From the IMG/VR virus record IMGVR_UViG_3300010885_028065, positions 1 to 28,829 of that record: a stretch of 28,829 nt of DNA. The stretch is one strand, 5' to 3'. A program made the position numbers and the translations under genes. The notes under the pieces were generated by a model that worked only from the letters and a program-made list of their open reading frames with translations, was not told the DNA's origin and did not search any database. Source of the DNA: a virus. This document shows positions 4,061 to 25,378 of this stretch, piece after piece; position 1 is the first letter of the stretch; each line of letters starts with the position of its first letter.

Positions 4061-4066
4061 TACAGT

Positions 4067-4160: not shown

Positions 4161-4185
4161 ACATTAAAAGAAAGGTGGTCATCAA

Positions 4186-4368: not shown

Positions 4369-4370
4369 GA

Positions 4371-4676: not shown

Positions 4677-4718
4677 ACATGGCACTCCCCTACTGATCAA
4701 ATACGGTAGGGGGTGGCT

Positions 4719-4892
4719 ATGCCTCACCATTACAAAGATGGCACTGGTACTAGTTACAATGCAGGCACTCCCATGGTGTGCTCACTATTATTTTTTTATT
4801 TATTTTTTTATTATATGTATCATACACATCTAGAAAATATTCAGATTTTTGCTATTTTGGTTTTTACAAAAATTTTCAGATTTCGTGTATAA
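4719..4892 (+). CDS. Doubtful small ORF with hydrophobic C-terminus (57 aa)
   Basis: A frame opens at ATG 4719 (MPHHYKDGTGTSYNAGTPMV), and the N-terminal part looks protein-like. It then runs through a T-rich tract (TTATTTTTTTATTTATTTTTTT) that yields CSLLFFYLFFYYMY, and ends inside the promoter of the next gene. Either it is a small membrane protein, or the T-rich tract is a terminator and the frame is chance. There is no good ribosome binding site. The rest of the 4677-4890 gap holds an unplaced hairpin, CCCCTAC (4687) / GTAGGGG (4706). Confidence 0.22.
   Translation: MPHHYKDGTGTSYNAGTPMVCSLLFFYLFFYYMYHTHLENIQIFAILVFTKIFRFRV
4765..4797 (+). terminator. Possible terminator of the plus-strand operon
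   Basis: GCAC (4765-4768) pairs with GTGC (4778-4781), with an internal CC/GG pair, followed within a few bases by a T-rich tract. The stem is short, so this is tentative. It conflicts with the doubtful frame at 4719-4892. Confidence 0.35.
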
Positions 4893-4893
4893 T
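4888..4893 (+). promoter_or_regulatory. -10 box of a leaderless gene (4900)
   Basis: A perfect TATAAT, preceded by GTG, lies 6 nt before ATG 4900, which places the expected transcription start on the A of the start codon. Confidence 0.6.
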
Positions 4894-4899
4894 AGAAAC

Positions 4900-5088
4900 A
4901 TGGGTATATTAGAAAACTTTGAAAACTGGGTTGAGGTAAATGAACCAGCTTGGGCAAACCTCTCTACAAAGATTTTTTCAGAAACGGTATGTGAGAACTG
5001 CCAATGCAAAACAGAATCAACCCCTATGATAGAAACAGACAATATGGGTAGAGAAAAATTCTGGGAACAAGAAAGTTTAAACTTCTGA
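4900..5088 (+). CDS. Small Cys-containing protein (62 aa), leaderless
   Basis: I place the start at ATG 4900 (MGILENFENWVEVNEPAWAN), not at an upstream ATG at 4849, because the TATAAT at 4888 would put the longer start outside the transcript. The middle has CENCQC, a possible metal site. The end overlaps the convergent gene at 5077 by 12 nt. No family recognised. Confidence 0.66.
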   Translation: MGILENFENWVEVNEPAWANLSTKIFSETVCENCQCKTESTPMIETDNMGREKFWEQESLNF

Positions 5089-5283
5089 CTTTAGATTCCA
5101 CATGCGGATATCTGTAACACCCTTACGAATAGCTTCTGACTCATCTGCATCCTTTGCATCAACAGTTAATGTTGCTTTACTAAAATCTACATTTCCTAAG
5201 TGTTCATAAATGTTCATTCCAGTATTTGACACAAAGGCAGTTTCAACCGCATCTTTATTCACGGTATAGGTATACTTAGGCAA
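5077..5283 (-). CDS. Hypothetical protein (68 aa)
   Basis: It begins MPKYTYTVNKDAVETAFVSN and includes TLTVDAKDADESEAIRKGV. The start is TTG at 5283, overlapping the end of the upstream gene by 8 nt, with only a weak AAAGAAG ribosome site. The beta-strand-like N-terminus and alternating pattern suggest a small alpha/beta domain. It converges on and overlaps 4900-5088. No family recognised. Confidence 0.62.
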   Translation of the reverse strand: MPKYTYTVNKDAVETAFVSNTGMNIYEHLGNVDFSKATLTVDAKDADESEAIRKGVTDIRMWNLKSEV

Positions 5284-5461
5284 TTATTTTAGCTTCTTTC
5301 ATCTTGGCATATAGAGCTGCGACTATCAAACCCATGCCAGGTCTGCTTTGTTCAATTTGCTGATCAATCTGCTCTGGAGACATTCCAGACTGCTCAGAGA
5401 GCAAACGATTTGTCTCATTTATAGACTTCATCATAAATGCAATTGCTTCTTGTTCGTTCAT
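5276..5461 (-). CDS. Hypothetical helical protein (61 aa)
   Basis: I choose ATG 5461 (MNEQEAIAFMMKSINETNRL) because AAAGAGGAT precedes it by about 6 nt. Upstream ATGs at 5488 and 5476 are too close to or inside the promoter. The protein is helical and Gln/Met-rich (MSPEQIDQQIEQSRPG), with a hydrophobic stretch near the end (GLIVAALYAKMK). Possibly an oligomerising phage protein. Function unknown. Confidence 0.6.
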   Translation of the reverse strand: MNEQEAIAFMMKSINETNRLLSEQSGMSPEQIDQQIEQSRPGMGLIVAALYAKMKEAKIIA

Positions 5462-5488
5462 TTTATCCTCTTTCATTTTGTTGTACAT

Positions 5489-5497
5489 ACTATATCA
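5489..5497 (-). promoter_or_regulatory. Extended -10 promoter for 5461-5077
   Basis: TGATATAGT on the minus strand overlaps the stop codon of the upstream zinc-ribbon gene. It fits the TGnTATAAT style used throughout the window and would give a short leader before ATG 5461. Confidence 0.42.
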
Positions 5498-5692
5498 CCA
5501 CTTACCAATCGGACACGTTGCTTTTTCTAATTTTGTTTTAAGCTTCATAAAACACCCACACTTCCTGCAAGTTTGATTTCCTTTACGAAAGAACTCACAG
5601 CCTCTACAAATATTCAAACGGTATTCCTCAAGCTCTTCTGGACTTCTAGGAGATCCATTAAACAAATCACAAGGACGAACTTCATCGCTCAT
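5495..5692 (-). CDS. Zinc-ribbon protein (65 aa), paralogue of 15727-15966
   Basis: The protein has CRGCEFF...CRKCGCFMKLKTKLEKATC and ends in CPIGKW. This CxxC-(n)-CxxCxCFM-K-(K/R)L-CPxGKW pattern is the same as in the protein at 15727-15966, which is 79 aa long. Such zinc-ribbon proteins recur in marine and freshwater phages (recalled, not checked). ATG 5692 overlaps the end of the nuclease-like gene by 4 nt (ATGA). It probably binds a nucleic acid or a partner protein; the exact role is unknown. Confidence 0.76.
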   Translation of the reverse strand: MSDEVRPCDLFNGSPRSPEELEEYRLNICRGCEFFRKGNQTCRKCGCFMKLKTKLEKATCPIGKW

Positions 5693-6294
5693 AGAATCTC
5701 CAATTTGGACGGTATATCAATGATATCACAAGAGACTGTTGTCCATAACTGATGAGACATAGTAGGACGTATAGTAGCAGACATACCTGGTATCTCCATT
5801 ATATATTTATATCCAGTTCCATGCTTAGATTCTTTTCTAGACCAATGCTCAATTGAGTAATCAAGGTTTGAAGCTTCAAATACAAATAGGTAATAGGTTT
5901 TAGTCTCAATTTTGGACGGTATAGAAGACCAATCCTGTTCTGCTTTTGCTAAACACACATAATAATCAGCATGTGTAGAAGCAACACTCTCAACCATCTT
6001 CTCTAGTGTTTCATGTTTGCCCAAGCGGGAACCGCTAATAACTAGAGTTTGCTTCACAGGGTCATATCTTCCTGACTTGACGGATATACTCTCTCCCTGG
6101 TCTAAAGTCATGTCTATGCTGACGCTATGGCTTCTATCGGGCTTCCAGTCATTTGGCATACCGTTTTCATTTAGGGCATCAGAAACCAACTCTTCTAGAA
6201 ATTCACTTGTGCAAGGAAGTCTATATACAGAGTGATGTATTTTTAATTTATCCAGTAAGCTGTCCAGTAGAATGTTTTTTATTTGTTCACGCAT
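5689..6294 (-). CDS. Probable PD-(D/E)XK restriction-type nuclease
   Basis: The protein is 201 aa. Its N-terminal third has a helix with Glu 31/34 (TSEFLEELVSDAL), followed by Asp 61 (SIDMTLDQG) and a strand SISVKSG with Lys 73. E...D...xxK-S-G in this order is the core of PD-(D/E)XK nucleases, here with Ser in place of the second acid next to the Lys. The C-terminal half (TYYLFVFEASNLDY, YIMEIPGM) looks like further strands and a DNA-binding part. It could cut host DNA or act as a restriction-like enzyme. No methylase gene lies nearby. The start at 6294 fits a leaderless transcript. Confidence 0.55.
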   Translation of the reverse strand: MREQIKNILLDSLLDKLKIHHSVYRLPCTSEFLEELVSDALNENGMPNDWKPDRSHSVSIDMTLDQGESISVKSGRYDPVKQTLVISGSRLGKHETLEKMVESVASTHADYYVCLAKAEQDWSSIPSKIETKTYYLFVFEASNLDYSIEHWSRKESKHGTGYKYIMEIPGMSATIRPTMSHQLWTTVSCDIIDIPSKLEIL

Positions 6295-7557: not shown

Positions 7558-8292
7558 ATGGCTATATCAAAAAATATGGATGCTCCAAAAGCAAAATATG
7601 CAGATGCAATTCAGTCAACCAAAAACACAAATTCTCCAAATACTGAATACGTTGCTGTTCCAGGAGTTCAGGGCGAAAAGGGTGAAGTAGGACCAGCAGG
7701 ACCTCCAGGACCACAGGGTGAAAAAGGGGAAAGGGGAATCCAAGGCAAAGAGGGAAGAGAAGGTCCAAGGGGTCCAAAAGGAGATCCTGGTAAAGGTGGA
7801 GGACAAGGATACGATAGCCCATCTGGACAATATCCTGGTTGGGCGTACTATGAAAACAAAAATAAAAAAGCAATTTTCCTTGGCCCAGATAGAGGCGATG
7901 ATGGTTGGGTTAATATTTTCATGGACGATGATTTAGATAATAATATTTTAAAATTTCTTCCAGAAGGATCAGTATCTTTGTGGAACTCAGTTACTCAAAG
8001 AATTAACTTTAAGCAATTAAAAGTTGGGGCAAGAGTAGATATCAGATATGATATAGCATTAACTACAGATACAAATAGCACTGAGGCTTGGATAAGAACC
8101 TATATTCCAAAAGTAGAATCTCCAACGGGATATATTGGAATGTTAAAATATAAATATCCTTATGAGATGTCTGTTAACCAAACCTTATATGTAGACTTGT
8201 CAAAAATTAGATCAGAAGGTGCAATAATCCAAGCAAGAGCAGATAGCGAAAGCACCATACTTCTTAAGGGAATGTATATAGCAATTTCATAA
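7558..8292 (+). CDS. Collagen-like fibre protein
   Basis: The protein is 244 aa. Residues 36-80 form 15 uninterrupted Gly-X-Y triplets (GVQGEKGEVGPAGPPGPQG, then GEKGERG and on to GDPGKG), a collagen helix. Pro occupies the Y position, where collagen prolyl-4-hydroxylase acts, at P50 and P77, and the X position at P46, P49, P52, P70 and P73. A short N-terminal stretch precedes it, and a C-terminal beta-rich domain of about 160 residues follows (ending LKGMYIAIS). Collagen stretches are known as trimeric spacers in phage fibres. Seven prolyl-hydroxylase-like genes lie 8-14 kb downstream. Confidence 0.85.
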   Translation: MAISKNMDAPKAKYADAIQSTKNTNSPNTEYVAVPGVQGEKGEVGPAGPPGPQGEKGERGIQGKEGREGPRGPKGDPGKGGGQGYDSPSGQYPGWAYYENKNKKAIFLGPDRGDDGWVNIFMDDDLDNNILKFLPEGSVSLWNSVTQRINFKQLKVGARVDIRYDIALTTDTNSTEAWIRTYIPKVESPTGYIGMLKYKYPYEMSVNQTLYVDLSKIRSEGAIIQARADSESTILLKGMYIAIS

Positions 8293-12565: not shown

Positions 12566-14395
12566 ATGGCAACAAGAATGCAACAGCGCAGAGGTACTGC
12601 AGCACAATGGACATCTGCCGATCCAGTATTAAATGCTGGTGAAATGGGTTGGGAATCAGACACCAACAAGTTTAAGATAGGTGATGGAACAAACCACTGG
12701 GTTGACCTAGACTACTTTATTGACGCTAACTCAACAGCAAACCCATCTTTTGGTTCAAGCATTACATTTGAGGGTGCAACTGCAAATGACTTTGAGACTA
12801 CTCTTGCTATAACAGATCCTACAGCGGATCGCACAATCACATTCCCTAATGCTACAGGAACAGTGGTTTTATCTGACGGTAGTGGAAATGTTACAGTATC
12901 AGGAGACTTAACAGTAAGCGGTACAACCACCACTATTAACAGTACAACAATTAATGCTACAACAGGAATGGTTTTTGAAGGTGCAACAGCAAATGCCTTT
13001 GAAACTACCCTCACAGTAACTGACCCAACAGCAGATAGAACTCTAACTCTTCCAGATGCAACAGGAACACTTGCCACCACAGCAGACATTTCTACCCATG
13101 ACTCTGATACAACATCAGTACATGGTATTGCAGATACTTCACTTCTTGCAACAACAGCAAATATTTCTACACACAATTCCGATACAACAGATGTTCATGG
13201 TATTGCTGATACATCAGTTCTTGTTACTACATCAATTCTTTCATCAAATCTTTCATCAAAGGCAGACCTTGCTTCACCAACATTTTCAGGTACCGTAACT
13301 CTTCCAGCAGGAACTGTTACCTCTACAATGATTCTAGATGGAACAATTCTTGATGCAGATATCAATGCATCAGCTGCTATTGCTAAAACTAAGATTTCTG
13401 GAACAGCAGTTACAGTTGCCGATACTGGTACAGTAACAAGCACAATGCTTGCAGATGCAACAATCGTAAATGGTGACATATCTGCTTCAGCAGCGATTGC
13501 ACAGTCTAAGATTTCAGGTCTTTCAGATAGCTTCACAGCTAAAGCAGATGTTGCTGGACCTACATTTACTGGTACAGTGACAATTCCTACACTTGCTGTA
13601 ACAACAACAGCAACAGGTATTTCAAAATCAATGGTTGGGCTAGGAAATGTTGATAATACAGCAGATACAGCAAAGCCAGTATCAACTGCTCAGCAAACAG
13701 CACTTGACCTTAAGGCAAACCTTTCTGGAGCAACATTCACAGGAGCAGTTTCTGGAACTAGCTTGACTCTTTCTGGCGATCTCACAGTTAATGGAACTAC
13801 TACAACATTAAATTCAACATCACTTTCTATAGATGATAAAAATATTGAACTAGGCTCAGTTGCTAGCCCATCAGATGTAACCGCAGATGGTGGAGGTATC
13901 ACACTTAAGGGCGCAACAGATAAAACCTTTAACTGGGTAGATGCCACAGATTCTTGGACCTCTTCAGAGCACATCAACCTTGCTTCAGGAAAAGACCTAA
14001 AGGTAAATGGAACTGCAGTTATTAGCTCAACAGCTGGTGGATTTATCTTTACAGATGGAACACAGACACTTGAAGGAGTTCCATCAAGAACCACAATTAT
14101 TCAAAAGACAGCCTCTTATACACTTTCAGCACTTACTGAAAGAGATGATTTAATTGAAGTTTCTAGCGCAAGCGGTACAACAATAACTATTCCATTAAAC
14201 TCAGCAGTAGCCTTCCCAGTTGGAACATCAATTGATATTCTTCAAACTTCTACAGGACAAGTAACAATTGCGGGAGATGCTGGGGTAACGGTAAATGCAA
14301 CACCAGGATTAAAACTAAGAACTCAATGGTCATCTGCGACTCTCTTTAAGAGAGCAACAAATACATGGGTTGTTTTTGGCGACTTGACAGCTTAA
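12566..14395 (+). CDS. Large tail fibre protein B (609 aa)
   Basis: It begins MATRMQQRRGTAAQWTSADP and GEMGWESDTNKFKIGDGTNH, the N-terminal domain found in many phage fibres (Mtd/hyaluronidase-type, RRGTAAxW...GExGxExDTxxFKxGDG). Two FEGATAN-FETTL...TDPTADRT units follow, then repeats of HDSDTTSVHGIADTS, the (SSKAD or SFTAKAD)...FTGTV units, and the module shared with fibre A. The C-terminus (about residues 510-609) is a separate beta-domain ending VVFGDLTA. It is probably a receptor-binding fibre. Confidence 0.8.
   Translation: MATRMQQRRGTAAQWTSADPVLNAGEMGWESDTNKFKIGDGTNHWVDLDYFIDANSTANPSFGSSITFEGATANDFETTLAITDPTADRTITFPNATGTVVLSDGSGNVTVSGDLTVSGTTTTINSTTINATTGMVFEGATANAFETTLTVTDPTADRTLTLPDATGTLATTADISTHDSDTTSVHGIADTSLLATTANISTHNSDTTDVHGIADTSVLVTTSILSSNLSSKADLASPTFSGTVTLPAGTVTSTMILDGTILDADINASAAIAKTKISGTAVTVADTGTVTSTMLADATIVNGDISASAAIAQSKISGLSDSFTAKADVAGPTFTGTVTIPTLAVTTTATGISKSMVGLGNVDNTADTAKPVSTAQQTALDLKANLSGATFTGAVSGTSLTLSGDLTVNGTTTTLNSTSLSIDDKNIELGSVASPSDVTADGGGITLKGATDKTFNWVDATDSWTSSEHINLASGKDLKVNGTAVISSTAGGFIFTDGTQTLEGVPSRTTIIQKTASYTLSALTERDDLIEVSSASGTTITIPLNSAVAFPVGTSIDILQTSTGQVTIAGDAGVTVNATPGLKLRTQWSSATLFKRATNTWVVFGDLTA
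13754..13995 (+). repeat. Fibre module shared with 11228-11463
   Basis: The second copy of the shared module, in the same order and frame. Protein differences are conservative (INSTEITVDDKN versus LNSTSLSIDDKN). Confidence 0.6.
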
Positions 14396-14416: not shown

Positions 14417-15247
14417 ATGGCAGCAGGCAAAAAAATTGGAAAAAAGTCACAAGCTTCAAATGACTTTTTGGCACCATCTCAGGTAACTTCATTAACAGCT
14501 ACAGATGTTGGTACAAGCAGACCATATTTAGCTACAGCTAATACAACATCTGCAGCATCAGCAGCAGGCACAGGAGGCTCTGTAAGCCTTGCCTGGACTC
14601 TTCCAGCGCTGTCTCCAGCTGCCACATCTTACACAATTACAACAACACCATCAACATATACTGTAACAACAGGAACTTCAACTCCTTCTTATACTTTTCA
14701 AGGACTTGCATCAAATACATCTTATACCTTTACAGTTAGTGGCACAAATGCTTCAGGTACTGGAACTGGAACAACATCCTCTTCTGTAACAGCAACAACG
14801 GTCCCCGCAACAATGTCTGCCCCTACCCCAACAGCTGGAGTTAATCAAAACTCAATTGCTTTTACAGCCCCAGCAACTGGTGGTAAGGCTATTACTGGTT
14901 TTACAGTTACTGGCAGTGATGCAACATCTGGGACAGGAGCATCGTCCCCTATTATCATTGCTGACACAGCAGGAACTTCACAGACTTATACAGTAAAAGC
15001 AACCAATGCTAATGGTTCTGGAATAGATTCTGCAGCATCTGCTTCAGTAACAACACTATCTCCGTTCTTCCCACCGTTCTTTCCGTTCTTTCCTCCTTTC
15101 TTCCCATTCTTCCCGTTCTTCCCATCATTTGGCCCATTCTTCCCATTCTTCCCAGGCTTTGGTCCATTCTTTCCATACTTCTGCCCGTCATGCCCTGGCG
15201 GTTGTGGATCAGGATTCTACTGTAATTGTGGTACTTGCGGCTTCTAG
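14417..15247 (+). CDS. Fn3-like surface protein with Phe/Pro-rich, Cys-rich tail
   Basis: The protein is 276 aa, with AGGGGAAAA upstream of ATG 14417. Residues 40-215 hold two fibronectin-III-like beta-sandwiches (GTGGSVSLAWTLPALSPAAT; GLASNTSYTFTVSGTNASGT; FTVTGSD). Residues 216-255 are a run of FFP and PFFP units broken by SFG and GFG. Residues 256-276 are CPSCPGGCGSGFYCNCGTCGF-like, with six Cys at 256, 259, 263, 269, 271 and 274. There is no signal peptide, which fits a virion protein. The tail has many prolines and could be a substrate of the hydroxylases encoded next door. Function inferred. Confidence 0.72.
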   Translation: MAAGKKIGKKSQASNDFLAPSQVTSLTATDVGTSRPYLATANTTSAASAAGTGGSVSLAWTLPALSPAATSYTITTTPSTYTVTTGTSTPSYTFQGLASNTSYTFTVSGTNASGTGTGTTSSSVTATTVPATMSAPTPTAGVNQNSIAFTAPATGGKAITGFTVTGSDATSGTGASSPIIIADTAGTSQTYTVKATNANGSGIDSAASASVTTLSPFFPPFFPFFPPFFPFFPFFPSFGPFFPFFPGFGPFFPYFCPSCPGGCGSGFYCNCGTCGF

Positions 15248-15284: not shown

Positions 15285-15725
15285 GTGGTAAAAATCAATA
15301 CTTATGCTCTTGCTGTTAAAATAGATGATAATTTATTTGAAATTTTTCATTTAGTAGATACTGAAAAAAATTCAGAGATGGATATACGATATCAAGAAAG
15401 CACAAAAAAAGAAACAAAGGTAATACCTCTTAGACCTAATGAACAATTTAATTTAGGCGCTTCTTGGAATGAAAAAGGCTTTACTCTTAATAATGAAAAA
15501 GAGCCAATTTCTTTTGATACAAACGCTGACACATATGTATTTTTATCAGAAAATATTGTTTTTGGAATGTTTAGAATAATCCATCAACATCCATTTGTTG
15601 AAAAATATAGGGCAGCTATAGAAAGTGATGTAATTGTCATTAATATTTCTAATTATCTTGATGCTGACTTAGGTGATTTGTGGAATGGAAAAGAAGTTTA
15701 TAGTGTAGAGGGGTTTAAAAAGTAG
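15285..15725 (+). CDS. Hypothetical protein (146 aa)
   Basis: The start is GTG 15285 (MVKINTYALAVKIDDNLFEI); an ATG at 15280 is out of frame. The protein is beta-rich with acidic loops, contains PNEQFNLGASWNEKGFTLNN and IVFGMFRIIHQHPFVEKYRA, and has no Cys. I do not recognise a family. It is the first gene after the fibre block and precedes the zinc-ribbon protein with only 1 nt between them, so it belongs with the modification operon more than with the fibres. Confidence 0.62.
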   Translation: MVKINTYALAVKIDDNLFEIFHLVDTEKNSEMDIRYQESTKKETKVIPLRPNEQFNLGASWNEKGFTLNNEKEPISFDTNADTYVFLSENIVFGMFRIIHQHPFVEKYRAAIESDVIVINISNYLDADLGDLWNGKEVYSVEGFKK

Positions 15726-15726: not shown

Positions 15727-15966
15727 ATGTCAAAATGGAATGAATGGAAAAATAATTTAGGAGATGCAAGACCTTGGCATTTACTAGATCCAAACAGACA
15801 AATTAAAGATAAATCTATAGTTGAAAAAAGAATGGATTTATGTAATGGCTGTGAGTTTTTAACAAAAACAACAAAACAATGTGAAAAATGTGGTTGTTTT
15901 ATGACAGCAAAAACAAGGCTTGCTAATGCAGAGTGTCCTATTGGAAAATGGGGCAAAGAAGATTAA
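15727..15966 (+). CDS. Zinc-ribbon protein (79 aa), paralogue of 5495-5692
   Basis: CNGCEFL...CEKCGCFMTAKTRLANAEC ends in CPIGKW, with an N-terminal extension (MSKWNEWKNNLGDARPWHLL). It has the same CxxC-CxxCxCFM-CPxGKW pattern as 5495-5692. It lies between a hypothetical protein and the oxygenase operon. Zinc binding is inferred from the cysteines; it may be an adaptor or an RNA-polymerase- or DNA-binding factor. Confidence 0.75.
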   Translation: MSKWNEWKNNLGDARPWHLLDPNRQIKDKSIVEKRMDLCNGCEFLTKTTKQCEKCGCFMTAKTRLANAECPIGKWGKED

Positions 15967-16037: not shown

Positions 16038-16748
16038 TTGTACACAGAAGAAGAAAATCCTTGGTTTACTAAAGATAGATCAGAATCATTATCAAATAGA
16101 GTACATAGAGTACTAGATAATAAAAATGTTTCTAACCCAGCACTTGGATTAAATATTTATGAAAATGCTATAAGTGCTGAAGATATAGAATTAGTTATTA
16201 ATACCCTAGAAGGTAGCTTGTCCGATGGTTCAACTTATTCTTGGCAAGAAGCTAAGGTTACTAATTCTGAAAAACCCATCAAAGCAGCAAGAGATTGCTC
16301 TGACTTTAAGTATAATAGTAAAACTTTGGGACCTAAGAATGAAAGCAATGCTGGTCTAATTCATATCTATGAAAAAATGGAAGACCTAGTAAAAAAATGT
16401 GTCAATGATTATGCTATGTATTGGGGATTTAATGTTGTTTACTACGAGGTATTTAATTTTGTAAAATATCAGGGTGAGGGCCAAGAGTTTAAAATTCATG
16501 CAGATCATGGCCCACACTATAATACAACTGTATCTATTGTTGCTTATTTAAATGACGATTATGAAGGTGGAGAAATATATTTTCCAAGGTTAGACAACTT
16601 AACCTATAAGCCAAAAGCTGGAGACATTGCAGTTTTTCCATCAAACTATATTTATGAACATGCATCACTTCCATTAAAGTCTGGTACAAAGTATTGCATA
16701 GTTGTCATGTCAGATATTAATCTTCTAGGTCATCAAACATATAAATAA
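16038..16748 (+). CDS. 2OG-Fe(II) oxygenase 1 (prolyl-4-hydroxylase type)
   Basis: The protein is 236 aa and starts with TTG behind AGGGGG. The core is a jelly-roll: His 154 and Asp 156 (HAD) and His 208 bind iron, and Lys 218 (SGTKY), 10 residues on, is the 2-oxoglutarate anchor. YLNDDYEGGEIYF and PKAGDIAVFPS are the diagnostic P4H strands. It would use O2 and 2-oxoglutarate to hydroxylate a protein or small substrate. It is the first of seven related genes (16038-22504). The substrate is unknown; the nearby collagen-like and Pro-rich virion proteins are candidates. Confidence 0.85.
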   Translation: MYTEEENPWFTKDRSESLSNRVHRVLDNKNVSNPALGLNIYENAISAEDIELVINTLEGSLSDGSTYSWQEAKVTNSEKPIKAARDCSDFKYNSKTLGPKNESNAGLIHIYEKMEDLVKKCVNDYAMYWGFNVVYYEVFNFVKYQGEGQEFKIHADHGPHYNTTVSIVAYLNDDYEGGEIYFPRLDNLTYKPKAGDIAVFPSNYIYEHASLPLKSGTKYCIVVMSDINLLGHQTYK

Positions 16749-16769: not shown

Positions 16770-17441
16770 ATGAATACAGATCAAAATACAGAAGTTTCTT
16801 GGAGTAGTTGCGAAGAGATAGCTCCAGGAATTATAGTTTATCACGATGTTCTTAAAGAAGATTTAGATATTATCAATAGACTAGAGTCAATTTTAGGTAG
16901 AGAAAGAACCAACTATAGGTGGCAACCAGCATATGTTGGATACAAACAAAGAATGCCAGAGTATAGAGATTGTGTAGATTTTAAATTTAAAAAAACAGAT
17001 ATACAAGGTGATCTATCTCCAGACTCAATAAAACTTCAGGAAATTTGGCAAGACTGTTTTGATAGACAAAACCTAGCAGTACAAGACTATTCTAAAAAAT
17101 TTAATATAAATAATTTAAGATATTGGGAAGCCTTTAATTTTATTAAGTATGAGGCAGGACATCACTTTATGGAGCACCATGATCATGGGTTTTCCTATAA
17201 CTGCACATTGTCTTTAGTAGCATACTTAAACGATAATTTTGAAGGCGGAGAGCTTTTCTTTAGACTGCAAGGAATCAACTACATTCCAAAAGCTGGAGAT
17301 GTTGTTTTATTCCCATCAAACTTTATGTATCCACATCAAGCAAAGGTTGTGCATTCTGGTATAAAATATTCTTTAGTTACTATGCTTGATTATAGTGATA
17401 AATATCATAAGCCAGAATTTTATCAAGAAACTGGATCTTAA
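16770..17441 (+). CDS. 2OG-Fe(II) oxygenase 2 (prolyl-4-hydroxylase type)
   Basis: AAGGAGAAGG precedes ATG 16770. It is 223 aa, with iron ligands His 136 and Asp 138 (HHD), His 189 (PHQAKV) and Lys 199 (SGIKY). YLNDNFEGGELFF and PKAGDVVLFPS are present. It resembles gene 1 most, by sequence and by Lys as the 2OG residue, and is its likely duplicate. Its TAA is shared with the ATG of the next gene (TAATG). Confidence 0.85.
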   Translation: MNTDQNTEVSWSSCEEIAPGIIVYHDVLKEDLDIINRLESILGRERTNYRWQPAYVGYKQRMPEYRDCVDFKFKKTDIQGDLSPDSIKLQEIWQDCFDRQNLAVQDYSKKFNINNLRYWEAFNFIKYEAGHHFMEHHDHGFSYNCTLSLVAYLNDNFEGGELFFRLQGINYIPKAGDVVLFPSNFMYPHQAKVVHSGIKYSLVTMLDYSDKYHKPEFYQETGS

Positions 17442-18145
17442 TGTCAATAATTACATGTTACAAAAAAGATCCAAATGGGCTGATTATAGCCCCAATGTCC
17501 ATTAAAAGAGATTGGATGGATGAAACACCGCAAGGTCATGCCTATAGGTGTCATCCAGTAACGTCTGCCAATGTTCTTGGATGGTATATCTATTCTAAAA
17601 AAGATTTTAGATTTATCTGGAACGGAATAAATGATACAAGTGGAGACAATGTAAAAATTATAGAAGGTGAATATAATGCCTACACAGGTAGAGGTCAGTC
17701 AACAGTAAGCTTCAATACTGGGTTTATGTTAAGGACAGATCAAAGTATGAGTGTTCTTACAATAACACCACCAAACTATTTTAGTAATGACTTTGAGGTG
17801 GTTTCATCTTTAGTTTCAACTTCTTTTTTAAGAACAGACTTTCCCTTAGCAATTAAATGTAAAACTGCAAATAAAGAAATAACTATAAAAGCTGGAACTC
17901 CAATAGCAACAATAATTCCAATTTCTGTTACATCACTTAAGGATGAATCAGTTGAAATATTAAATTTTGAGCCCACTGAAGAATATAACAATGATGCTAT
18001 AGCATATGGTTCTGCTGCTAGAAAAATAAATGAGTCTGGCCAGTGGACTGATTGGTATCGTAATGCAACAAATGAAAAAGGAGAATCTATTGGCTCTCAC
18101 GAAGTTAAAAACTTAAAGTTAAGTGTAATTGATAATTCAAGATGA
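17441..18145 (+). CDS. DUF6065-like protein
   Basis: The protein (234 aa) begins MSIITCYKKDPNGLIIAPMS and has IKRDWMDETPQGHAYRCHPV, the RDWMDxTPxxxAYRC pattern that I associate with DUF6065, and later IKAGTPIATIIPISV. Mostly beta-strand, possibly cupin-like in shape. Its function is unknown. It overlaps the previous gene by one base and the next by 4 nt (ATGA), so it is translated together with the oxygenases. No metal-binding HxD motif is visible. Confidence 0.66.
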   Translation: MSIITCYKKDPNGLIIAPMSIKRDWMDETPQGHAYRCHPVTSANVLGWYIYSKKDFRFIWNGINDTSGDNVKIIEGEYNAYTGRGQSTVSFNTGFMLRTDQSMSVLTITPPNYFSNDFEVVSSLVSTSFLRTDFPLAIKCKTANKEITIKAGTPIATIIPISVTSLKDESVEILNFEPTEEYNNDAIAYGSAARKINESGQWTDWYRNATNEKGESIGSHEVKNLKLSVIDNSR

Positions 18146-18867
18146 AAATAATAAATTTTATAAGCAATAGATATTGGCTAAAGAGCGATAGTGAGTCAAG
18201 ACCGCAATCAATGACAAAGCTTATTCCAAACTGGTACAGACAGGCAGACAGATTTGCTAAAATGCCAAATGGGGAATATTGGGTTGGGCCAGATACTGGA
18301 AAAGTTCCTACATGGAAAGCATGCCCAGCATTATTGGATATAATGACAACGGGATACAGCCTTGTAACTCCATGCGATATAGAATTTTTTCTTAATGACT
18401 CTGGCAACATTGCTGCAAAAATACATGATCCACTTTACCAAGATTTTGTTACAAGAAGAGATCCTATGCCACAATTTGAGCACCCACATGGATATTATAA
18501 AAATCACTTTGCATGGTTTCCAGAGTGGGCTATAAAAGTTCCAAATGGCTACAGCGTACTCTATTCTTCACCATTTAATAGATACGATCTTCCATTCATA
18601 ACTGTTTCTGGAATGATAGATAATGATAAGGTTAATCTTCCTGGATCAATGCCGTTTTTTATTAAAGAGGGTTGGGCTGGGACACTCCCAGCTGGAACAC
18701 CATATGCTCAAATGATTCCATTTTTAAGAGAAAACTGGAAGTCTGAAACAATAATTCCAGCAATAGATCAAATTCTTATAAATAATGTTACAAATAGCAA
18801 AAAGTATCGCATTCCAAATGGCGGTATTTATAAAAATAAAGTTTGGACTAAAAGATCCTATGAATAA
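18142..18867 (+). CDS. DUF6065-related protein
   Basis: The protein (241 aa) begins MKIINFISNRYWLKSDSESR and has FAWFPEWAIKVPNGYSVLYS, SPFNRYDLPFITVSGMIDND and LPAGTPYAQMIPFLRENWK. AGTP-(x)2-(Q/T)-(M/I)-IP matches the C-terminal part of 17441-18145, so they are probably distant relatives. It lies between the second and third oxygenase genes; the next gene starts from its own -10 box. I infer a structural or substrate-binding role in the same process; catalysis is not visible. Confidence 0.62.
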   Translation: MKIINFISNRYWLKSDSESRPQSMTKLIPNWYRQADRFAKMPNGEYWVGPDTGKVPTWKACPALLDIMTTGYSLVTPCDIEFFLNDSGNIAAKIHDPLYQDFVTRRDPMPQFEHPHGYYKNHFAWFPEWAIKVPNGYSVLYSSPFNRYDLPFITVSGMIDNDKVNLPGSMPFFIKEGWAGTLPAGTPYAQMIPFLRENWKSETIIPAIDQILINNVTNSKKYRIPNGGIYKNKVWTKRSYE

Positions 18868-18889: not shown

Positions 18890-19555
18890 ATGATAGAACA
18901 AATTCAAAATAAAAACATGGTTAAATATGAATCAATAACGCCATCAGGGTTTTTTGGGCTATCCCCAGACAATATTCAATCTAGAGAAAATTTTATGACT
19001 GAAGAAGAAAGAACTTTTTTATTAGATGCAGCAGAGTCTATTACTGAATGGGACAAAACAGAGACGCACTATAATGATGATGGAGTCATTATCTATGATT
19101 CTACATACTGGGATAATCGTGTTGCTTCAAGACCTATACTAGATGCTATTAATCCAAAAATATCTAATGTTATTGAAAAACTTGTAGCAAGATTAAAGGT
19201 TGAAGTTGATAATCACTTTAATGTAGATGCTATGCCAACAAGTCCAGCTATTGTTAGATGGATGCCAGGATATAGGCAGGAGCCACACGCAGACAAGCAG
19301 TTACAGAATGGTGAACCAAATGATTTCCCATGGTATGATCTGGCTGGTTTATTTTATTTAAATGATAACTATGAAGGTGGTGAGCTTTATTTTTTGCATC
19401 ATAATATTGAGTTTAAGCCAAAGCCAGGAGCAGCTTATTTTTTCCCAGGGGATATAGGTTATAGCCATGGGGTAAAAGAAATTACTAGTGGCATCAGATA
19501 TGTAATACCATTTTTTTGGACAATACAAAAGCATACAGGAAAGATAAAGCCATGA
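18890..19555 (+). CDS. 2OG-Fe(II) oxygenase 3
   Basis: The protein is 221 aa. Iron ligands are His 133 and Asp 135 (PHADK) and His 193 (SHGVKE), with Arg 203 (SGIRY) replacing the Lys of genes 1 and 2. YLNDNYEGGELYF and PKPGAAYFFPGD are conserved. It starts a leaderless transcript and overlaps the next gene by 4 nt (ATGA). The Arg suggests a different subfamily from the collagen-type enzymes with Lys. Confidence 0.83.
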   Translation: MIEQIQNKNMVKYESITPSGFFGLSPDNIQSRENFMTEEERTFLLDAAESITEWDKTETHYNDDGVIIYDSTYWDNRVASRPILDAINPKISNVIEKLVARLKVEVDNHFNVDAMPTSPAIVRWMPGYRQEPHADKQLQNGEPNDFPWYDLAGLFYLNDNYEGGELYFLHHNIEFKPKPGAAYFFPGDIGYSHGVKEITSGIRYVIPFFWTIQKHTGKIKP

Positions 19556-20391
19556 CAGTTGATTTTATAGAGATATATCCAAAAATACTTGTATACCCAA
19601 ACTCTTTTGAAAATCCACGTTTTTGGATAGATGATTTTCTAAAGCAAGATGAAAGCAAATTGGGTGATTGGGGTATGTATGGAAGAATATACAATACTTC
19701 AAATTTTTTTCCAACACATAATAATTTCCCTAACTATGATGAGTTTATAAAAAATTACATACACAATAGCCAGTATCCTGAGTTTGCAGAAGAATATGGA
19801 AAAATCTTTTATAAGAATACAGAGCATTGGTTAAGCATGTATCCAATGGAGTTAGAAAATTGGATTGGTTCACCACCATCAATTGGTGAGTATGTAGTTG
19901 ATAAAGATAAAGGGCATAGTAAAACATTTTCAATGGCATATCATTCTGATGAAACAAAAGGAGAAGACTCTTGGCCAGGTCATAAGTTTGAGATAACTTC
20001 TACGTTATACTTAAATGATGATTATGAACAAGGAGAAATTTGTTTTTTAATTAAAGAAGAAGATGGATCAGATGCAAGATTTTCTTATAAGCCAAAATCG
20101 GGAGATATGATGATTTTTCCATCACGATCTCCATATTTTCATGCAGTAAAAAGAGCTTTTAATGTAAATAGATATATAGTAAGATCTTTTTGGAAGTCAC
20201 AATACGCAGGCGATCAATCTTGGCACGATGGGGCTAAAGAGTATGGTTTAGAAAAATGGAATGAAATGAAACAAATTGAAATCCATGAATATAGACAAAA
20301 GAATATTCCAAATCCAGAAAACTATGCTGATACCTATAACAGAGATAATGAAAAACTTGGCTTAAATCTAGACGGAACAATTAAGCATTAG
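19552..20391 (+). CDS. 2OG-Fe(II) oxygenase 4 (longest member)
   Basis: I choose ATG 19552 (ATGA overlap with the previous stop, GGAAAG about 9 nt upstream), not the longer frame from 19516. The protein is 279 aa. His 131 and Asp 133 (HSD), His 197 (FHAVKR) and Arg 207 (NRYIVR) complete the site, with YLNDDYEQGEICF and PKSGDMMIFPS. It has an aromatic-rich N-terminal domain of about 120 residues and a charged C-terminal tail with NPENYADTYNRD. Substrate unknown. Confidence 0.82.
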   Translation: MTVDFIEIYPKILVYPNSFENPRFWIDDFLKQDESKLGDWGMYGRIYNTSNFFPTHNNFPNYDEFIKNYIHNSQYPEFAEEYGKIFYKNTEHWLSMYPMELENWIGSPPSIGEYVVDKDKGHSKTFSMAYHSDETKGEDSWPGHKFEITSTLYLNDDYEQGEICFLIKEEDGSDARFSYKPKSGDMMIFPSRSPYFHAVKRAFNVNRYIVRSFWKSQYAGDQSWHDGAKEYGLEKWNEMKQIEIHEYRQKNIPNPENYADTYNRDNEKLGLNLDGTIKH

Positions 20392-20398: not shown

Positions 20399-21145
20399 AT
20401 GAACCTGAATAATAAAAAAAGACTAACAAAAGATATTGTGATTTATGAAAACTTTATTGATGATGACACTTGTAAAAAAATGATAAAAGCATTAGATGAT
20501 CAAGAAAATAAAGGAAAGATGTCTTGGATGCCAATATCATTTTATGAGTCTTATTCTTCTGTTCTGCCACAAGACAATGATCAAGAAGTAATTGATGCAG
20601 GTCTTGAGCCAACAATATTTTCAGATATTGAGAAGGTAATGTATGAAGCAATTGCTTCAGTGCACGACTTAGATCCAAATACAATATGTAAAATTGGCTA
20701 CCATACTCAAAAATGGGAGCCTGGAGCATATGCAAGAATTCATTCTGATAATACTGATGAGCATGGGAATTCAGGAGCATTTACAAGAAGCAGGTATGCA
20801 GGTTTTCTATATTTAAATGATGAATTTGAAGGTGGACTTCTTAGGTTTCCAGACCAGAACATAGAGATTAAACCACAGGTTGGGATGCTTGCTGTTTTTG
20901 ACGGGGGATTCAATAATATGCATGAAGTGACAATGATTAACAATGGTGTAAGATATACCATTGGTTCTTTTTGGGATGACCGTGAAGAGGATGCATACCC
21001 ACAAGAACTAAGAGATACTTGGGCTGTAGAAATGAAAGAAACTAGAGCTAAGCAAGCAAGTGAAAAAGCACAATGGCAAGAACTTCTTAAAGAAGGCTAT
21101 AAAATAGATACTGATGGAAATAAATACAAGGTGGGAGATCTATAA
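20399..21145 (+). CDS. 2OG-Fe(II) oxygenase 5
   Basis: The protein is 248 aa. His 115 and Asp 117 (HSD), His 175 (MHEVTM) and Arg 185 (NGVRY) form the site, with YLNDEFEGGLLRF and PQVGMLAVFDGG. After the catalytic core an extra helical tail (about residues 190-248, rich in Glu, Lys and Ala) ends in KIDTDGNKYKVGDL, which may bind a partner. An AGGAATAAA ribosome site precedes the ATG. The stop abuts the next ATG. Confidence 0.83.
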   Translation: MNLNNKKRLTKDIVIYENFIDDDTCKKMIKALDDQENKGKMSWMPISFYESYSSVLPQDNDQEVIDAGLEPTIFSDIEKVMYEAIASVHDLDPNTICKIGYHTQKWEPGAYARIHSDNTDEHGNSGAFTRSRYAGFLYLNDEFEGGLLRFPDQNIEIKPQVGMLAVFDGGFNNMHEVTMINNGVRYTIGSFWDDREEDAYPQELRDTWAVEMKETRAKQASEKAQWQELLKEGYKIDTDGNKYKVGDL

Positions 21146-21808
21146 ATGGATGTTTTTTTAAAAAAAGAGTTTGATGACGCTGGATACCAGACTGAGGTTT
21201 TACATGAGCAAATTCTTGCTGTAAAAGATTTTTTAAAAGAAGAAGAGATAGAAACTTTATTAGAAATAATTTCAACAACCCCTAATGAAGAGTGGTCTAT
21301 AGAATACACAAAAAATCTTGCTAGATTTTGTATGGAAAAGTTTGGAAGAGATGACGTAGACAACCTAGTTGCTGAAGGTAAATTTGAAATAACTCATGGA
21401 TGGCACGATAAAAATTTAAGCATAACTAATTATCAAATAAGCAAAACACTTCAAGCTAGGGTCGGAAAATTAATTAAATTATCAGATCCTTCATTAGAAC
21501 TTACTGGATTTGGAACACTTCAAAGAATGCAGCCAGGAGTTCAATTAATATCACATACTGATCAGCATACAGATCCAGCAATTAAGTATGCAACGATATT
21601 GTATATTAATGATGACTATAAAGATGGAACATTGTTTTTTGAAAATAAAGAAAACTCAGACTTAAAGCCAGCTCCAGGAACCTTACTTATCTTTCCAGGT
21701 AATGCAGAGTATGAGCATGGAGTTAGACACGTTGGAGAAGGACCTATAAGATATGTCACTGTAGGCTTTGTAAGAGTGGTAGGTTTTTATGAAAACAATA
21801 AATACTAA
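21146..21808 (+). CDS. 2OG-Fe(II) oxygenase 6
   Basis: The protein is 220 aa. His 137 and Asp 139 (HTD), His 191 (EHGVRH) and Arg 202 (GPIRYV) are present; the distal His to Arg distance is 11 rather than 10 because of one inserted residue. YINDDYKDGTLFF replaces the usual YLNDDYEGGE. The start follows the previous stop at once, with GGGAGA upstream. The most divergent core of the seven. Confidence 0.8.
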   Translation: MDVFLKKEFDDAGYQTEVLHEQILAVKDFLKEEEIETLLEIISTTPNEEWSIEYTKNLARFCMEKFGRDDVDNLVAEGKFEITHGWHDKNLSITNYQISKTLQARVGKLIKLSDPSLELTGFGTLQRMQPGVQLISHTDQHTDPAIKYATILYINDDYKDGTLFFENKENSDLKPAPGTLLIFPGNAEYEHGVRHVGEGPIRYVTVGFVRVVGFYENNKY

Positions 21809-21817: not shown

Positions 21818-22504
21818 ATGAAAAAAGAAATATTACACGAAAAAGTTTACTACTACGAAGATGGTGTTAAAAACTTTGATCAGCTTATGAAGTCTATTGA
21901 AAAGGTTAATGAATTAAACAATAATGAGCCCTGGGAAAACTGGACAGCTTCTAATGACAAGAACTTTATTTATGGAGAAACTAAATCATTTGACAAGCAG
22001 CAAATTGAGCAGTTAGAAGAGCCTCATCGCTCTGAAATGTTGTTTATATTTAAAACCATTATGGAATCTTTCTATGATGTTTCTAAAGACTTTGCTACCT
22101 CTATTGGAGATAATGACGAGCCAAGACTATTTCCAGTTTTTAATATTAAAAAGTATAAATCTGGAATTGGAATGGGTGCACACTTTGATCAACTAGACGG
22201 AGATCAAACTTTAAGATACTCTTTGGTTATGTACCTAAACGATGACTTTGATGGTGGAGAAATATCATTCAAGCTTTCTGAATATAAAAACCTTGGTGAG
22301 TTTCCATCTCCAAACCTTGACTATGATATTGCTGTAGCAAATAATGAAATTGATTTTGGCTTAAAGCCTAAAGCAGGAAGCATTATCATATTCCCATCTA
22401 TGGCACCATATCATCACACTGCCCATATTGTAAAAACGGGATTTAAATATATGGTTCCGAGCCACTGGATTCATAATAATATGCCACTACAACAAGGCAT
22501 GTAA
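21818..22504 (+). CDS. 2OG-Fe(II) oxygenase 7 (long insert)
   Basis: The protein is 228 aa. His 122 and Asp 124 (HFD), His 200 (HHTAHI) and Lys 210 (TGFKY). YLNDDFDGGEISF is followed by about 25 extra residues (from LSEYKNLGEFPSPN) before PKAGSIIIFPS, so the two iron-binding parts lie 78 residues apart instead of 53-66. AAGGACTTAAA precedes ATG 21818. Lys again as in genes 1 and 2. Confidence 0.82.
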   Translation: MKKEILHEKVYYYEDGVKNFDQLMKSIEKVNELNNNEPWENWTASNDKNFIYGETKSFDKQQIEQLEEPHRSEMLFIFKTIMESFYDVSKDFATSIGDNDEPRLFPVFNIKKYKSGIGMGAHFDQLDGDQTLRYSLVMYLNDDFDGGEISFKLSEYKNLGEFPSPNLDYDIAVANNEIDFGLKPKAGSIIIFPSMAPYHHTAHIVKTGFKYMVPSHWIHNNMPLQQGM

Positions 22505-22509: not shown

Positions 22510-23175
22510 ATGAAAACAGCAATAGTTACTGGGGCTAGTAAAGGTGTTGGGCTAGCAACAGTCAAGCATCTATCTCAAAATGGGTATAAGGTAATTGCTG
22601 TTTCAAGAGATCTGTCCAAGGTTTCTGAGCTTGTATCCGATAATTTTGAGACGTACAGCCTAGACATAACAGACTCTAACGCAATAGAAGGTTTTTTTGA
22701 AAAATATAAAGATATTACCTTAGACCTTCTAGTCAATAATGCGGGTGGTGGATCTGGACCAACTCACATCATAAATGAAACCCCAGAAAACTTTAGAAAG
22801 GCTTATGACATAAATGTCACTGGCCCTATGTATTTGTCTCAGCTATTTGTTCCTTGTATGGAAAGATCAGAGTCTCCAACTATTATTTTTATAACTTCCT
22901 TTGGTGGAAAAGTACCATATCGTGGAGGTGGAAATTATACAAATGCTAAAAGAGGGCAGAGGGGTTTGATAGAAACAATGAGGCTAGAGTTCCCTCAATT
23001 TGGCATTAAGATTACAGAAATCTGTCCAGCAACTATTGACACTCAAAAAGAAAAAAAAGAAAATGCTTTAGCTGCAGAAGATTTAGCAGAGGCAATATAT
23101 TGGGTTGGCTCTTTGCCAAACCACGTCAATATAAATCAAATAGAAATGTGCCACATAAATAGTAGTAAGTTTTAG
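22510..23175 (+). CDS. Short-chain dehydrogenase/reductase (SDR)
   Basis: The protein is 221 aa: TGASKGVG (residues 7-14) is the cofactor-binding TGxxxGxG, followed by NNAG and a central ITSFGG...YTNAK with the catalytic Ser and YxxxK. The Arg in VSRDLS (after the second strand) would favour NADP(H). It lies 5 nt after the last oxygenase and probably on the same transcript. It could oxidise or reduce a product of the oxygenases or a sugar, but the substrate is not indicated. It ends just before a terminator. Confidence 0.85.
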   Translation: MKTAIVTGASKGVGLATVKHLSQNGYKVIAVSRDLSKVSELVSDNFETYSLDITDSNAIEGFFEKYKDITLDLLVNNAGGGSGPTHIINETPENFRKAYDINVTGPMYLSQLFVPCMERSESPTIIFITSFGGKVPYRGGGNYTNAKRGQRGLIETMRLEFPQFGIKITEICPATIDTQKEKKENALAAEDLAEAIYWVGSLPNHVNINQIEMCHINSSKF

Positions 23176-23344: not shown

Positions 23345-24340
23345 ATGTCAGAAAGCGTATTCTCATTCCGTCTATCAGAGGACTTTGTAAATAAGTACTC
23401 TACTATCCCAGCACCGTTTGGATTCTCAGATGCTGGGTCTAATTCATTAGGAGAGATTACGTTTATTCGTACTTATTCTCGTGTTAAAGAAGATGGAACA
23501 AAGGAACGCTGGCATGAAGTATGTCGTCGTGTAATTGAGGGTATGTATTCAGTTCAAAAGAATCATGCAAAAGATAACCGTCTACCATGGAATGATAACA
23601 AGGCTCAGAAGTCTGCACAAGAAGCATTCCAGAGAATGTTTGAATTAAAGTGGACTCCCCCAGGTCGTGGCCTTTGGGCATTTGGAACTCCTATGACTAT
23701 GGAGAAGCGTAACTCAGCGTCCCTTCAAAATTGTGCAATGGTTTCAACTCGTGACATTGATCGTAATGATCCAGGAGCTCTTTTTGCTTGGGTAATGGAT
23801 GCTCTAATGCTTGGTATTGGAGTTGGGTTTGATACCCTTGGACAAGACAAGCAAATGTCTATTTATGCTCCCACTGAGCCAGCCTCAATTTATGAAATTC
23901 CAGACACTCGTGAAGGATGGGTTGAATCAGTTAGATTACTTATTAATTCATTTCTTCGTGCAAACCAGTCTATTCAAGAGTTTACCTATGACCTTATCCG
24001 TCCCCTAGGAGTTCCCATTAAAGGCTTTGGAGGCGTTGCTAGCGGTCCAGAACCACTTCTTGATCTCCATACACGCATTCGCAATGTAATCGGCTCTAGA
24101 GCAGGTGAAGCTCTTGATAGCCGTGCTATTGTAGATATTGTAAATCTTATTGGTACCTGTGTTGTTTCTGGAAACGTTCGTCGTTCTGCTACCCTTGCAC
24201 TTGGCACAGCAGAAGATGATGGCTTTATTAATCTTAAAAACCCAGAAGTATTTCCTGAAAGAAATTCATATGATCCAGAAAAACCAGGATGGGCATGGAT
24301 GTCAAATAATTCAATCTCAGCTGAGGTTGGAACAAAGTAA
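23345..24340 (+). CDS. nrdJ: Class II ribonucleotide reductase, N-terminal part (ends at in-frame TAA)
   Basis: This encodes residues 1-331 of a monomeric adenosylcobalamin-dependent reductase that converts ribonucleotides to deoxyribonucleotides. TPPGRGLW and Cys 130 (LQNCAMV), one partner of the redox pair, are in place. The frame stops at TAA codon 332 (24338-24340), after SNNSISAEVGTK, and continues in the same frame with EDYVDLIADNGEPGF. The join matches the family without any gap, so only one codon is wrong. Alone this part lacks the thiyl-radical Cys. Arg codons are mostly CGT, unlike the preceding operon. Confidence 0.85.
   Translation: MSESVFSFRLSEDFVNKYSTIPAPFGFSDAGSNSLGEITFIRTYSRVKEDGTKERWHEVCRRVIEGMYSVQKNHAKDNRLPWNDNKAQKSAQEAFQRMFELKWTPPGRGLWAFGTPMTMEKRNSASLQNCAMVSTRDIDRNDPGALFAWVMDALMLGIGVGFDTLGQDKQMSIYAPTEPASIYEIPDTREGWVESVRLLINSFLRANQSIQEFTYDLIRPLGVPIKGFGGVASGPEPLLDLHTRIRNVIGSRAGEALDSRAIVDIVNLIGTCVVSGNVRRSATLALGTAEDDGFINLKNPEVFPERNSYDPEKPGWAWMSNNSISAEVGTK
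24338..24340 (+). other. In-frame TAA inside the reductase gene
   Basis: Codon 332 reads TAA where related enzymes, as I recall them, have an aromatic residue (Tyr). A single base change from TAT or TAC would explain it. TAA is also the normal stop of many genes here, so general reassignment is not supported. Confidence 0.9.
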
Positions 24341-24391
24341 GAAGATTATGTAGATTTAATTGCAGATAATGGAGAACCAGGTTTTATCTGG

Positions 24392-25378
24392 TTGGATGTT
24401 GCTCGCAGTTATGGCCGTCTTGCCGATGCTCCAGACTATAAGGATGCTCGCATTATGGGCTTCAATCCTTGTGCGGAGCAGCCATTGGAGTCATACGAAC
24501 TTTGTACACTTGTAGAAGTGCACTTAAATCGTCATGAGTCCAAGGAGGACTTCCTGCGTACCCTTAAGTTTGCATACCTTTATGGAAAGACTGTAACACT
24601 TGTTCCGACACACTGGCCACAAACAAACGGAATCATGCAACGTAATCGCCGTATTGGAACATCTTTGACAGGTATTGCTTCATTTGCTGATGAGAATGGA
24701 CTACCAACAACTCGTGAGTGGATGGATGAAGGATATAATAAGATTCGTCATTATGATCACAAGTATTCAGAATGGCTATGTGTTCGTGAATCAGTTCGTG
24801 TAACAACTGTTAAGCCATCAGGATCTGTGTCACTTCTTTCTGGTGCTACCCCTGGAGTTCACTGGGGACCTGGCGGAGAGTTCTATCTTCGTGCTATTCG
24901 CTTTGGAAACACTGATCCAATGCTTCATTTGTTTAAAGCAGCGGGATATAAAATTGAAGCAGATCTAGTATCAGCAAATACACAGGTAGTTTATTTCCCA
25001 GTTGCATCTGGACATAGACGTGCTGAGAAGCAGGTAAGCTTATTTGAAAAGATTGGTTTGGCAGCAACTGCTCAGAAGTACTGGTCAGATAATGGTGTTT
25101 CTGTAACACTTTCATTTGATAAGGAAACTGAAAAGCAGTTTGTTGCTCCAGCACTTAATATGTATGAGGGCCAGCTTAAGGCAGTCTCGTTCCTTCCAAT
25201 GGGAAATAAGACATATCCTCAGCAACCATACAGCGAGATCACAAGAGAAGAATATAACGCATATGTTGGCAAGATTGGCAAGATTGACTGGTCTGCTATT
25301 TATGATGGTGTAGAAAATCTTGAGGCTGAAGGCGAAAGCTACTGCTCAACAGACGCTTGTGAGATTAAGCTGTATTAA
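24392..25378 (+). CDS. nrdJ: Class II ribonucleotide reductase, C-terminal part
   Basis: The frame is open from 24341, and the first ATG is at 24392 (MDVARSYGRLADAPDYKDAR) without a clear ribosome binding site. Counted from the full-length start, Cys 376 (NPCAEQPLE) is the thiyl-radical residue, Cys 387 (SYELC) its redox partner, and Cys 667/672 (CSTDAC) the C-terminal shuttle. The 11- and 5-residue spacings equal those of the Lactobacillus enzyme (C408/C419, C731/C736). No other damage is visible, so the lesion is recent, suppressed, or a sequencing error. Confidence 0.85.
   Translation: MDVARSYGRLADAPDYKDARIMGFNPCAEQPLESYELCTLVEVHLNRHESKEDFLRTLKFAYLYGKTVTLVPTHWPQTNGIMQRNRRIGTSLTGIASFADENGLPTTREWMDEGYNKIRHYDHKYSEWLCVRESVRVTTVKPSGSVSLLSGATPGVHWGPGGEFYLRAIRFGNTDPMLHLFKAAGYKIEADLVSANTQVVYFPVASGHRRAEKQVSLFEKIGLAATAQKYWSDNGVSVTLSFDKETEKQFVAPALNMYEGQLKAVSFLPMGNKTYPQQPYSEITREEYNAYVGKIGKIDWSAIYDGVENLEAEGESYCSTDACEIKLY

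Follow-up and report, generated by a model that had tools for sequence, protein, structure and literature searches.

A phage Fn3-like protein with a Phe/Pro stalk and an exchangeable cysteine-rich tip, encoded beside a cluster of prolyl-hydroxylase-like genes

Viral prolyl hydroxylases and modular phage fibres are both already known, each on its own. A 2022 survey of Baltic Sea viruses counted a prolyl 4-hydroxylase gene among the abundant auxiliary genes of water-column viruses and described the viral use of this enzyme as one that “remains cryptic” (PMC9301287). Outside the phages, the same survey cites Paramecium bursaria chlorella virus 1 (PBCV-1) for a prolyl 4-hydroxylase and for hydroxyproline in viral proteins (Eriksson et al. 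1999, cited in PMC9301287). Collagen-like and other repetitive-stalk phage fibres offer the nearest architectural likeness to the protein described here: a conserved base, a repetitive stalk, a variable C-terminal tip and a tail-fibre neighbourhood.

The locus lies in a viral record of 28,829 bases, called the window below. Its features are collected in Table 1. A stalk built of Phe and Pro, swappable tips with even numbers of cysteines, and the pairing of this protein with a hydroxylase cluster were not found in Pfam, PHROGs, NCBIfam, the GenBank phages or the literature searched. The portal protein has its nearest counterparts in Streptomyces phages (45% identity), which makes an actinobacterial host plausible. 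Two oddities of the record may be mentioned here. A class II ribonucleotide reductase (NrdJ-like) gene at 23345-25378 is interrupted by one in-frame TAA, at a site where the 24 other distinct sequences found have no stop, and this may be a sequencing error, an assembly error or a broken gene, which look alike here. With the standard bacterial code, neither strand of positions 1-5700 has an open frame of more than 135 codons, which is odd for a phage contig, and reading any one stop as sense opens no clear gene there.

Table 1. Features of the candidate adhesin gene and its surroundings in the window
Feature	Position	Strand	Evidence
Tail-fibre gene with Mtd_N domain, about 20 bp upstream of the candidate adhesin gene	12566..14395	+	Pfam Mtd_N E 3e-13; PHROG tail families
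Fn3-like candidate adhesin gene with Phe/Pro stalk and six-Cys tip, complete	14417..15247	+	276 aa; fn3 Pfam; at least 343 relatives
First Fn3-like beta sandwich, about residues 25-126	14489..14794	+	Pfam fn3 51-122; AF2 strands; Foldseek
Second Fn3-like beta sandwich, about residues 137-212	14825..15052	+	AF2; tandem FnIII fold matches
Phe/Pro stalk, residues 216-255, FFP and PFFP units with SFG and GFG breaks	15062..15181	+	Translation, composition, relatives
Six-Cys tip, residues 256-276	15182..15244	+	Translation; Cys spacing class; Cys parity
Small ORF, only in few relatives	15285..15725	+	5/98 FFP loci
Small CxxC protein, DUF6171	15727..15966	+	PF19668 E 2e-6; 42/98 FFP loci, 0/120 random
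2OG-Fe(II) oxygenase 1 (prolyl-hydroxylase-like)	16038..16748	+	PF13640 E 2e-12; HxD..H..K
2OG-Fe(II) oxygenase 2	16770..17441	+	PF13640 E 5e-12; HxD..H..K
DUF6065 protein, travels with the stalk gene	17441..18145	+	PF19541 E 3e-30; 95/98 FFP loci, 0/120 random
DUF6065-related protein (phrog_7084)	18142..18867	+	AF2 pLDDT 91; 95/98 FFP loci, 0/120 random
2OG-Fe(II) oxygenase 3	18890..19555	+	PF13640; HxD..H..R
2OG-Fe(II) oxygenase 4	19516..20391	+	PF13640; HxD..H..R
2OG-Fe(II) oxygenase 5	20399..21145	+	PF13640 E 7e-9; HxD..H..R
2OG-Fe(II) oxygenase 6	21146..21808	+	PF13640; HxD..H..R
2OG-Fe(II) oxygenase 7	21818..22504	+	PF13640; HxD..H..K
Short-chain dehydrogenase, cluster end, not generally conserved	22510..23175	+	PF00106 E 3e-40; 17/98 FFP loci

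The stalk-bearing protein and its relatives

The protein begins with a short N-terminal part, followed by two Fn3-like sandwiches, the stalk and the tip. The first sandwich places it in PF00041, with 40.7 bits (E 3e-10) against a gathering cut-off of 25 and a sandwich fold, and its best Foldseek matches are tandem FnIII domains (best E 1e-8). The second goes unrecognised by Pfam and is predicted by AF2 with pLDDT mostly around 80-90; for the stalk the prediction yields no structure, at low pLDDT. The stalk reads PFFPPFFPFFPPFFPFFPFFPSFGPFFPFFPGFGPFFPYF, with F or P at 35 of its 40 positions, and the tip reads CPSCPGGCGSGFYCNCGTCGF, with six cysteines. Translation and composition thus bear out the Phe/Pro tail with a six-cysteine end that an earlier note on this DNA had placed at 15062-15247: given the composition of the other window proteins, an F/P content this high has a binomial chance of about 1e-33, and so many cysteines one of about 1e-10. 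The stalk codons are mixed (TTC 16 and TTT 5 for Phe; CCA 8, CCG 4 and CCT 2 for Pro), which argues against recent slippage at the DNA level.

Two objections foreseen in the earlier note, a frame error in the repeat and the lack of the tail in related genomes, can be set aside, as can a sequencing artefact. The nearest relative among the matches listed (L002), whose head is 83% identical, codes for the same 61-residue tail through 21 synonymous and 0 nonsynonymous nucleotide differences, so that the tail peptide itself is under purifying selection. The stalk is likewise present in nearly all relatives examined, and is C-terminal in nearly all of them, at lengths of 39-110 residues between the 10th and 90th percentiles. 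These relatives form a large group in uncultured viral contigs, at least 343 in one scan. A DNA pattern scan for the repeat recovered stalks on about 15 unrelated head types, with 113 of about 154 stalk-bearing heads in one cluster.

Among 50,697 GenBank phages, tblastn with the window protein and two other stalk proteins (L083, L156) gave no match, and for a further stalk protein (L191) the sole match was to part of a tail fibre in an Erwinia phage; blastn with a stalk-rich stretch gave nothing there, under a low-complexity filter that may hide stalks. Plasmids gave no match. Bacterial and archaeal genomes of 84,980 species yielded only 8 stretches, a mixture of the same stalk and look-alikes. 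Four contigs with the same stalk (L200, L202, L205, L206) come from bacterial MAGs binned as Verrucomicrobiales, Gammaproteobacteria and Chitinophagaceae, and are probably binned phage or prophage. A text search of the literature for the strings PFFPPFFP and FFPPFFPP found no match, and other literature searches returned no relevant phage paper. The earlier remark that no named family has this ending holds for the libraries searched (Pfam, PHROGs and NCBIfam, the last without a match to the window protein).

Tip exchange and cysteine parity

Among 102 distinct complete relatives, the 84 tips of at least 12 residues form 33 unrelated clusters, and tips are unrelated in 300 of the 350 pairs whose heads are at least 80% identical. 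One contig (L006) carries two tandem copies whose tips differ although their heads are 94% identical. The base is thus conserved and the tip a module that can be exchanged, and its replacement on conserved heads is what would be expected of a host-facing part; the host-binding role suggested earlier fits this pattern, receptor binding being a probable function. No tip of at least 12 residues recurred, at 90% identity or more, on heads of 70% identity or less. Among shorter tips, the ending GMGDIEV recurs by eye in two loci (L015 and L023).

Some stalks are followed by no more than a few residues, while others run on into a short Cys-rich domain, a Hint/intein-like domain, further Fn3 or an S74 fibre chaperone. 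The Hint/intein-like domains make up long tips (L003, L039, L057, L191 and others), some retaining the Cys start and the HN end and others without both, and part of them may be non-cleaving folds that serve as tips. At one locus (L112:1085-1771) an FFP stalk runs into an S74 endosialidase-type intramolecular chaperone (Pfam E 4e-11). Such chaperones are typical of trimeric phage fibres, and this one suggests that the stalk-bearing fibres are trimeric. Diversification of the tips by a retroelement is unlikely, as reverse transcriptase (PF00078) was found in 0 of 29 long records, which may be fragments; on this count the window protein does not qualify as the variable protein of a diversity-generating retroelement. 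The lasso-like form raised in the earlier note finds no support, and none of the window ORFs searched was recognised as a gene for lasso maturation.

The number of cysteines is even, from 4 to 12, in all 75 distinct Cys-rich tips, 27 of which were added to an initial 48 to check the pattern, and 94 of 95 Fn3 heads have no cysteine at all. Random viral ORF C-termini with at least 4 cysteines were even in 72 cases and odd in 44. The prefilter for tips, set at 3 or more cysteines, could bias parity, and none with 3, 5, 7, 9 or 11 appeared. Within the Fn3 family alone these tips fall in about 25 unrelated clusters, so even parity is not one inherited fact. The six-cysteine spacing class of the window tip is shared with two relatives (L002 and L049). 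Searching ten Cys tips against Pfam gave nothing above cut-off, and the window tip had no match; one other tip (L032) has by eye a knottin-like C-C-CC-C-C spacing, its best Pfam match falling below cut-off (E 0.04). The disulfide-stapled module proposed in the earlier note gains strong, if indirect, support from parity and from the nearly Cys-free heads, and full pairing of the tip cysteines into disulfides is the simplest reading.

Linkage of the stalk to oxygenase genes

The gene comes after a run of tail-fibre genes identified by Pfam and PHROGs, and the first 2OG oxygenase begins 0.79 kb downstream, in agreement with the operon that the earlier note had put at about 0.8 kb. All seven window oxygenases belong to PF13640, each scoring above the 27-bit cut-off and carrying the HxD..H..R/K motif. 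Among solved structures, bacterial prolyl 4-hydroxylases (3itq/5hv0, E 2e-16) come nearest to them in sequence, followed by prolyl 3-hydroxylase 1. PHROGs classes most oxygenases of the superfamily among auxiliary metabolic genes; for the window enzymes, gene linkage points to proline within a polypeptide as the likely substrate. The DUF6065-related product encoded among them is predicted to adopt a dUTPase-like beta fold, with a best VIA Z of 8.8 (moderate) to dUTPase 2y8c and an rmsd of 2.7 over 120 residues.

The pairing recurs far beyond the window. Viral contigs were searched for FFP-repeat genes beside prolyl-4-hydroxylase-like genes, a check that the earlier note had proposed, and a 2OG oxygenase lies within 3 kb downstream in 91 of the 94 distinct stalk genes that have at least 3 kb of downstream sequence. 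Near stalk genes there are 3.8 oxygenases per 10 kb; the corresponding density is 0.049 for a baseline of 120 random viral loci, of unmatched habitat and phage group, none of which contains an FFP gene (0/120). Long records agree: of 29 (28 with a Phe/Pro stalk and one from a lineage that has lost FFP), 28 have oxygenases, usually at least six. In four loci (L448, L449, L450 and L451) the first FFP gene seemed distant from the cluster, and another FFP gene lies at or near it. The reverse test leads to the same place. Fetching 76 loci by oxygenase similarity alone, with a query itself derived from phages of the same stalk-bearing group, recovered 53 FFP stalks and 12 of a PPGFFA type (65/76); none of the 11 loci without a stalk reaches 12.3 kb, and the majority are fragments of 4.6-6.7 kb.

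These counts have limits. A single phage group is the source of most loci, and the gene order they inherited from it inflates the numbers and explains part of the association. Three FFP genes (L086, L133, L194) have no oxygenase within the available sequence, and one 53-kb record (G024) has FFP and no oxygenase at all. In one lineage (L207/L208/L211) the stalk has turned FAPFG-like, and FFP units and adjacent oxygenases are both gone; the order there is adhesin, DUF6065-like gene and NrdJ with no oxygenase between, and two oxygenases remain elsewhere. This joint loss is a single, unreplicated case. Independent support for the linkage comes from stalks on unrelated heads that also have oxygenases nearby (L083, L104, L116, L129, L138, L154 and a second head cluster) and from the variant stalk PPGFFA.

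The variant is itself a second stalk class, PPGFFAPPGFFA, which in L425-L440 accompanies less closely related oxygenases of that family.

Linkage of the stalk to hydroxylase-like genes makes it a strong candidate for the target of those enzymes. The dense target for proline hydroxylation imagined in the earlier note is thus well supported, indirectly, by association in both directions, and hydroxylation itself is probable. Collagen was considered as a target and rejected, since none of the 76 oxygenase loci yielded a collagen-like ORF that passed the filter. The window does encode a collagen-like Gly-X-Y protein (7558-8292, Pfam E 8e-8), a conceivable hydroxylase substrate that is not common to oxygenase loci.

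A proposed hydroxylated fibre among known systems

We think it probable that the protein is an adhesin of the phage tail or virion surface, with a conserved Fn3-like base, a Phe/Pro stalk that varies in length and is probably hydroxylated, and a host-facing tip that can be exchanged. The upstream tail-fibre genes, the S74 ending and tip replacement all count for this reading. The Fn3-like base would dock on the tail-fibre apparatus and the stalk would keep the tip away from the particle. The phage-encoded oxygenases downstream would probably hydroxylate stalk prolines, possibly other residues too, before or during assembly, which could give a very hydrophobic stalk (almost 90% Phe and Pro) polarity, solubility and an extended, rigid form. 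The 21-residue tip would probably form three disulfides once outside the reducing cytosol and bind the host surface. Recombination between related phages would replace tips while head and enzymes stay, changing host specificity without rebuilding the fibre.

Could the oxygenases have nothing to do with the stalk? The adhesin and its tip swapping may be right and the enzymes act elsewhere, on another virion protein, nucleotides or host proteins, their adjacency being that of an inherited late or auxiliary region. Much of the linkage does lie within one phage group, cyanophage members of the superfamily sit in replication modules, and the PHROGs classification would suit such a role. We nevertheless hold this unlikely: the enzymes also accompany stalks on unrelated heads, their distant relatives pair with the different PPGFFA stalk, the lineage that lost FFP retained its DUF6065-like neighbour and not the adjacent oxygenases, and a collagen-like ORF did not pass the filter in any of the 76 oxygenase loci.

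The other alternatives concern the stalk and the tip themselves, and we give each a slim chance. A segment so extremely hydrophobic, and C-terminal in nearly all relatives, could be a membrane-active or pore-lining tip that inserts during DNA delivery, with the Cys domain as its cap or plug. Its widely varying length argues against one fixed transmembrane use, however, large soluble Hint or S74 domains often come after it, dense proline is unfavourable for transmembrane helices or strands, and the co-located hydroxylases would suggest a need for polarity. For the cysteines, binding of a metal such as zinc is the weaker rival to disulfides. The CxxC and CxC spacings of the window tip would suit it and metal clusters are also compatible with even counts, but the tips include counts of 6, 10 and 12 cysteines, in no fixed layout and with almost no His, and disulfides are usual in extracellular surface proteins.

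If the adhesin reading is right, the Phe/Pro stalk would be a new kind of phage fibre stalk, and the even-Cys swappable tips would make up a natural collection of tiny disulfide domains with a possible part in setting phage host range. We lean, with somewhat less assurance, towards a wider view, in which many uncultured phages make a hydroxyproline-rich fibre with a dedicated multi-enzyme cluster and use it to recognise hosts through a display of interchangeable disulfide micro-domains. There would then be a structural substrate for a large class of phage prolyl hydroxylases so far counted as auxiliary metabolic genes, and the linkage names a concrete candidate for one large group of such enzymes. 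Hydroxylation, if proven directly, would be a new class of phage structural modification.

How does this compare with what has been described? PBCV-1 is also a virus with its own prolyl hydroxylase, reported, in the citing survey, with evidence of hydroxyproline in viral proteins. It is a eukaryotic algal virus with what is presumably a single such enzyme, whereas the contigs here are from phages and often place at least six oxygenases beside a Phe/Pro stalk. T4-like cyanophages have 2OG-Fe(II) oxygenases (PHROG 61 and relatives) that share the superfamily of the window enzymes, at only about 26-38% identity to the window enzyme compared; several sit in replication modules and the Phe/Pro stalk was not found in those phages, which shows that the superfamily as a whole is not bound to stalks. 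In Synechococcus phage S-SCSM1, a single example, four 2OG oxygenases adjoin tail-fibre genes, including a short tail fibre (L442:6090-7355) with a Pro/Arg/aromatic repeat (RQPRNFRQPR, RAPFNFRAP), possibly a second type of stalk with hydroxylases.

The remaining likenesses are those of design. The window stalk has no Gly-X-Y triplet repeat and so is not a collagen-like fibre; FFP and PFFP units take its place, the tips include tiny domains with all-even cysteines, and hydroxylase genes cluster next to it. An analogy can be drawn with hydroxyproline-rich extensins and collagen, in that a repeated proline sequence would be given polarity and extension by hydroxylases, but there is no sequence relation, Phe stands where Ser or Gly would, and the setting is a bacterial virus in which hydroxylation is a prediction. 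Tropism switching by Mtd and its diversity-generating retroelement likewise joins an Mtd_N domain, here on the upstream fibre, to a variable receptor-binding end. Unlike in that system, the 29 long records contain no reverse transcriptase, and variation takes the form of wholesale tip replacement rather than point changes.
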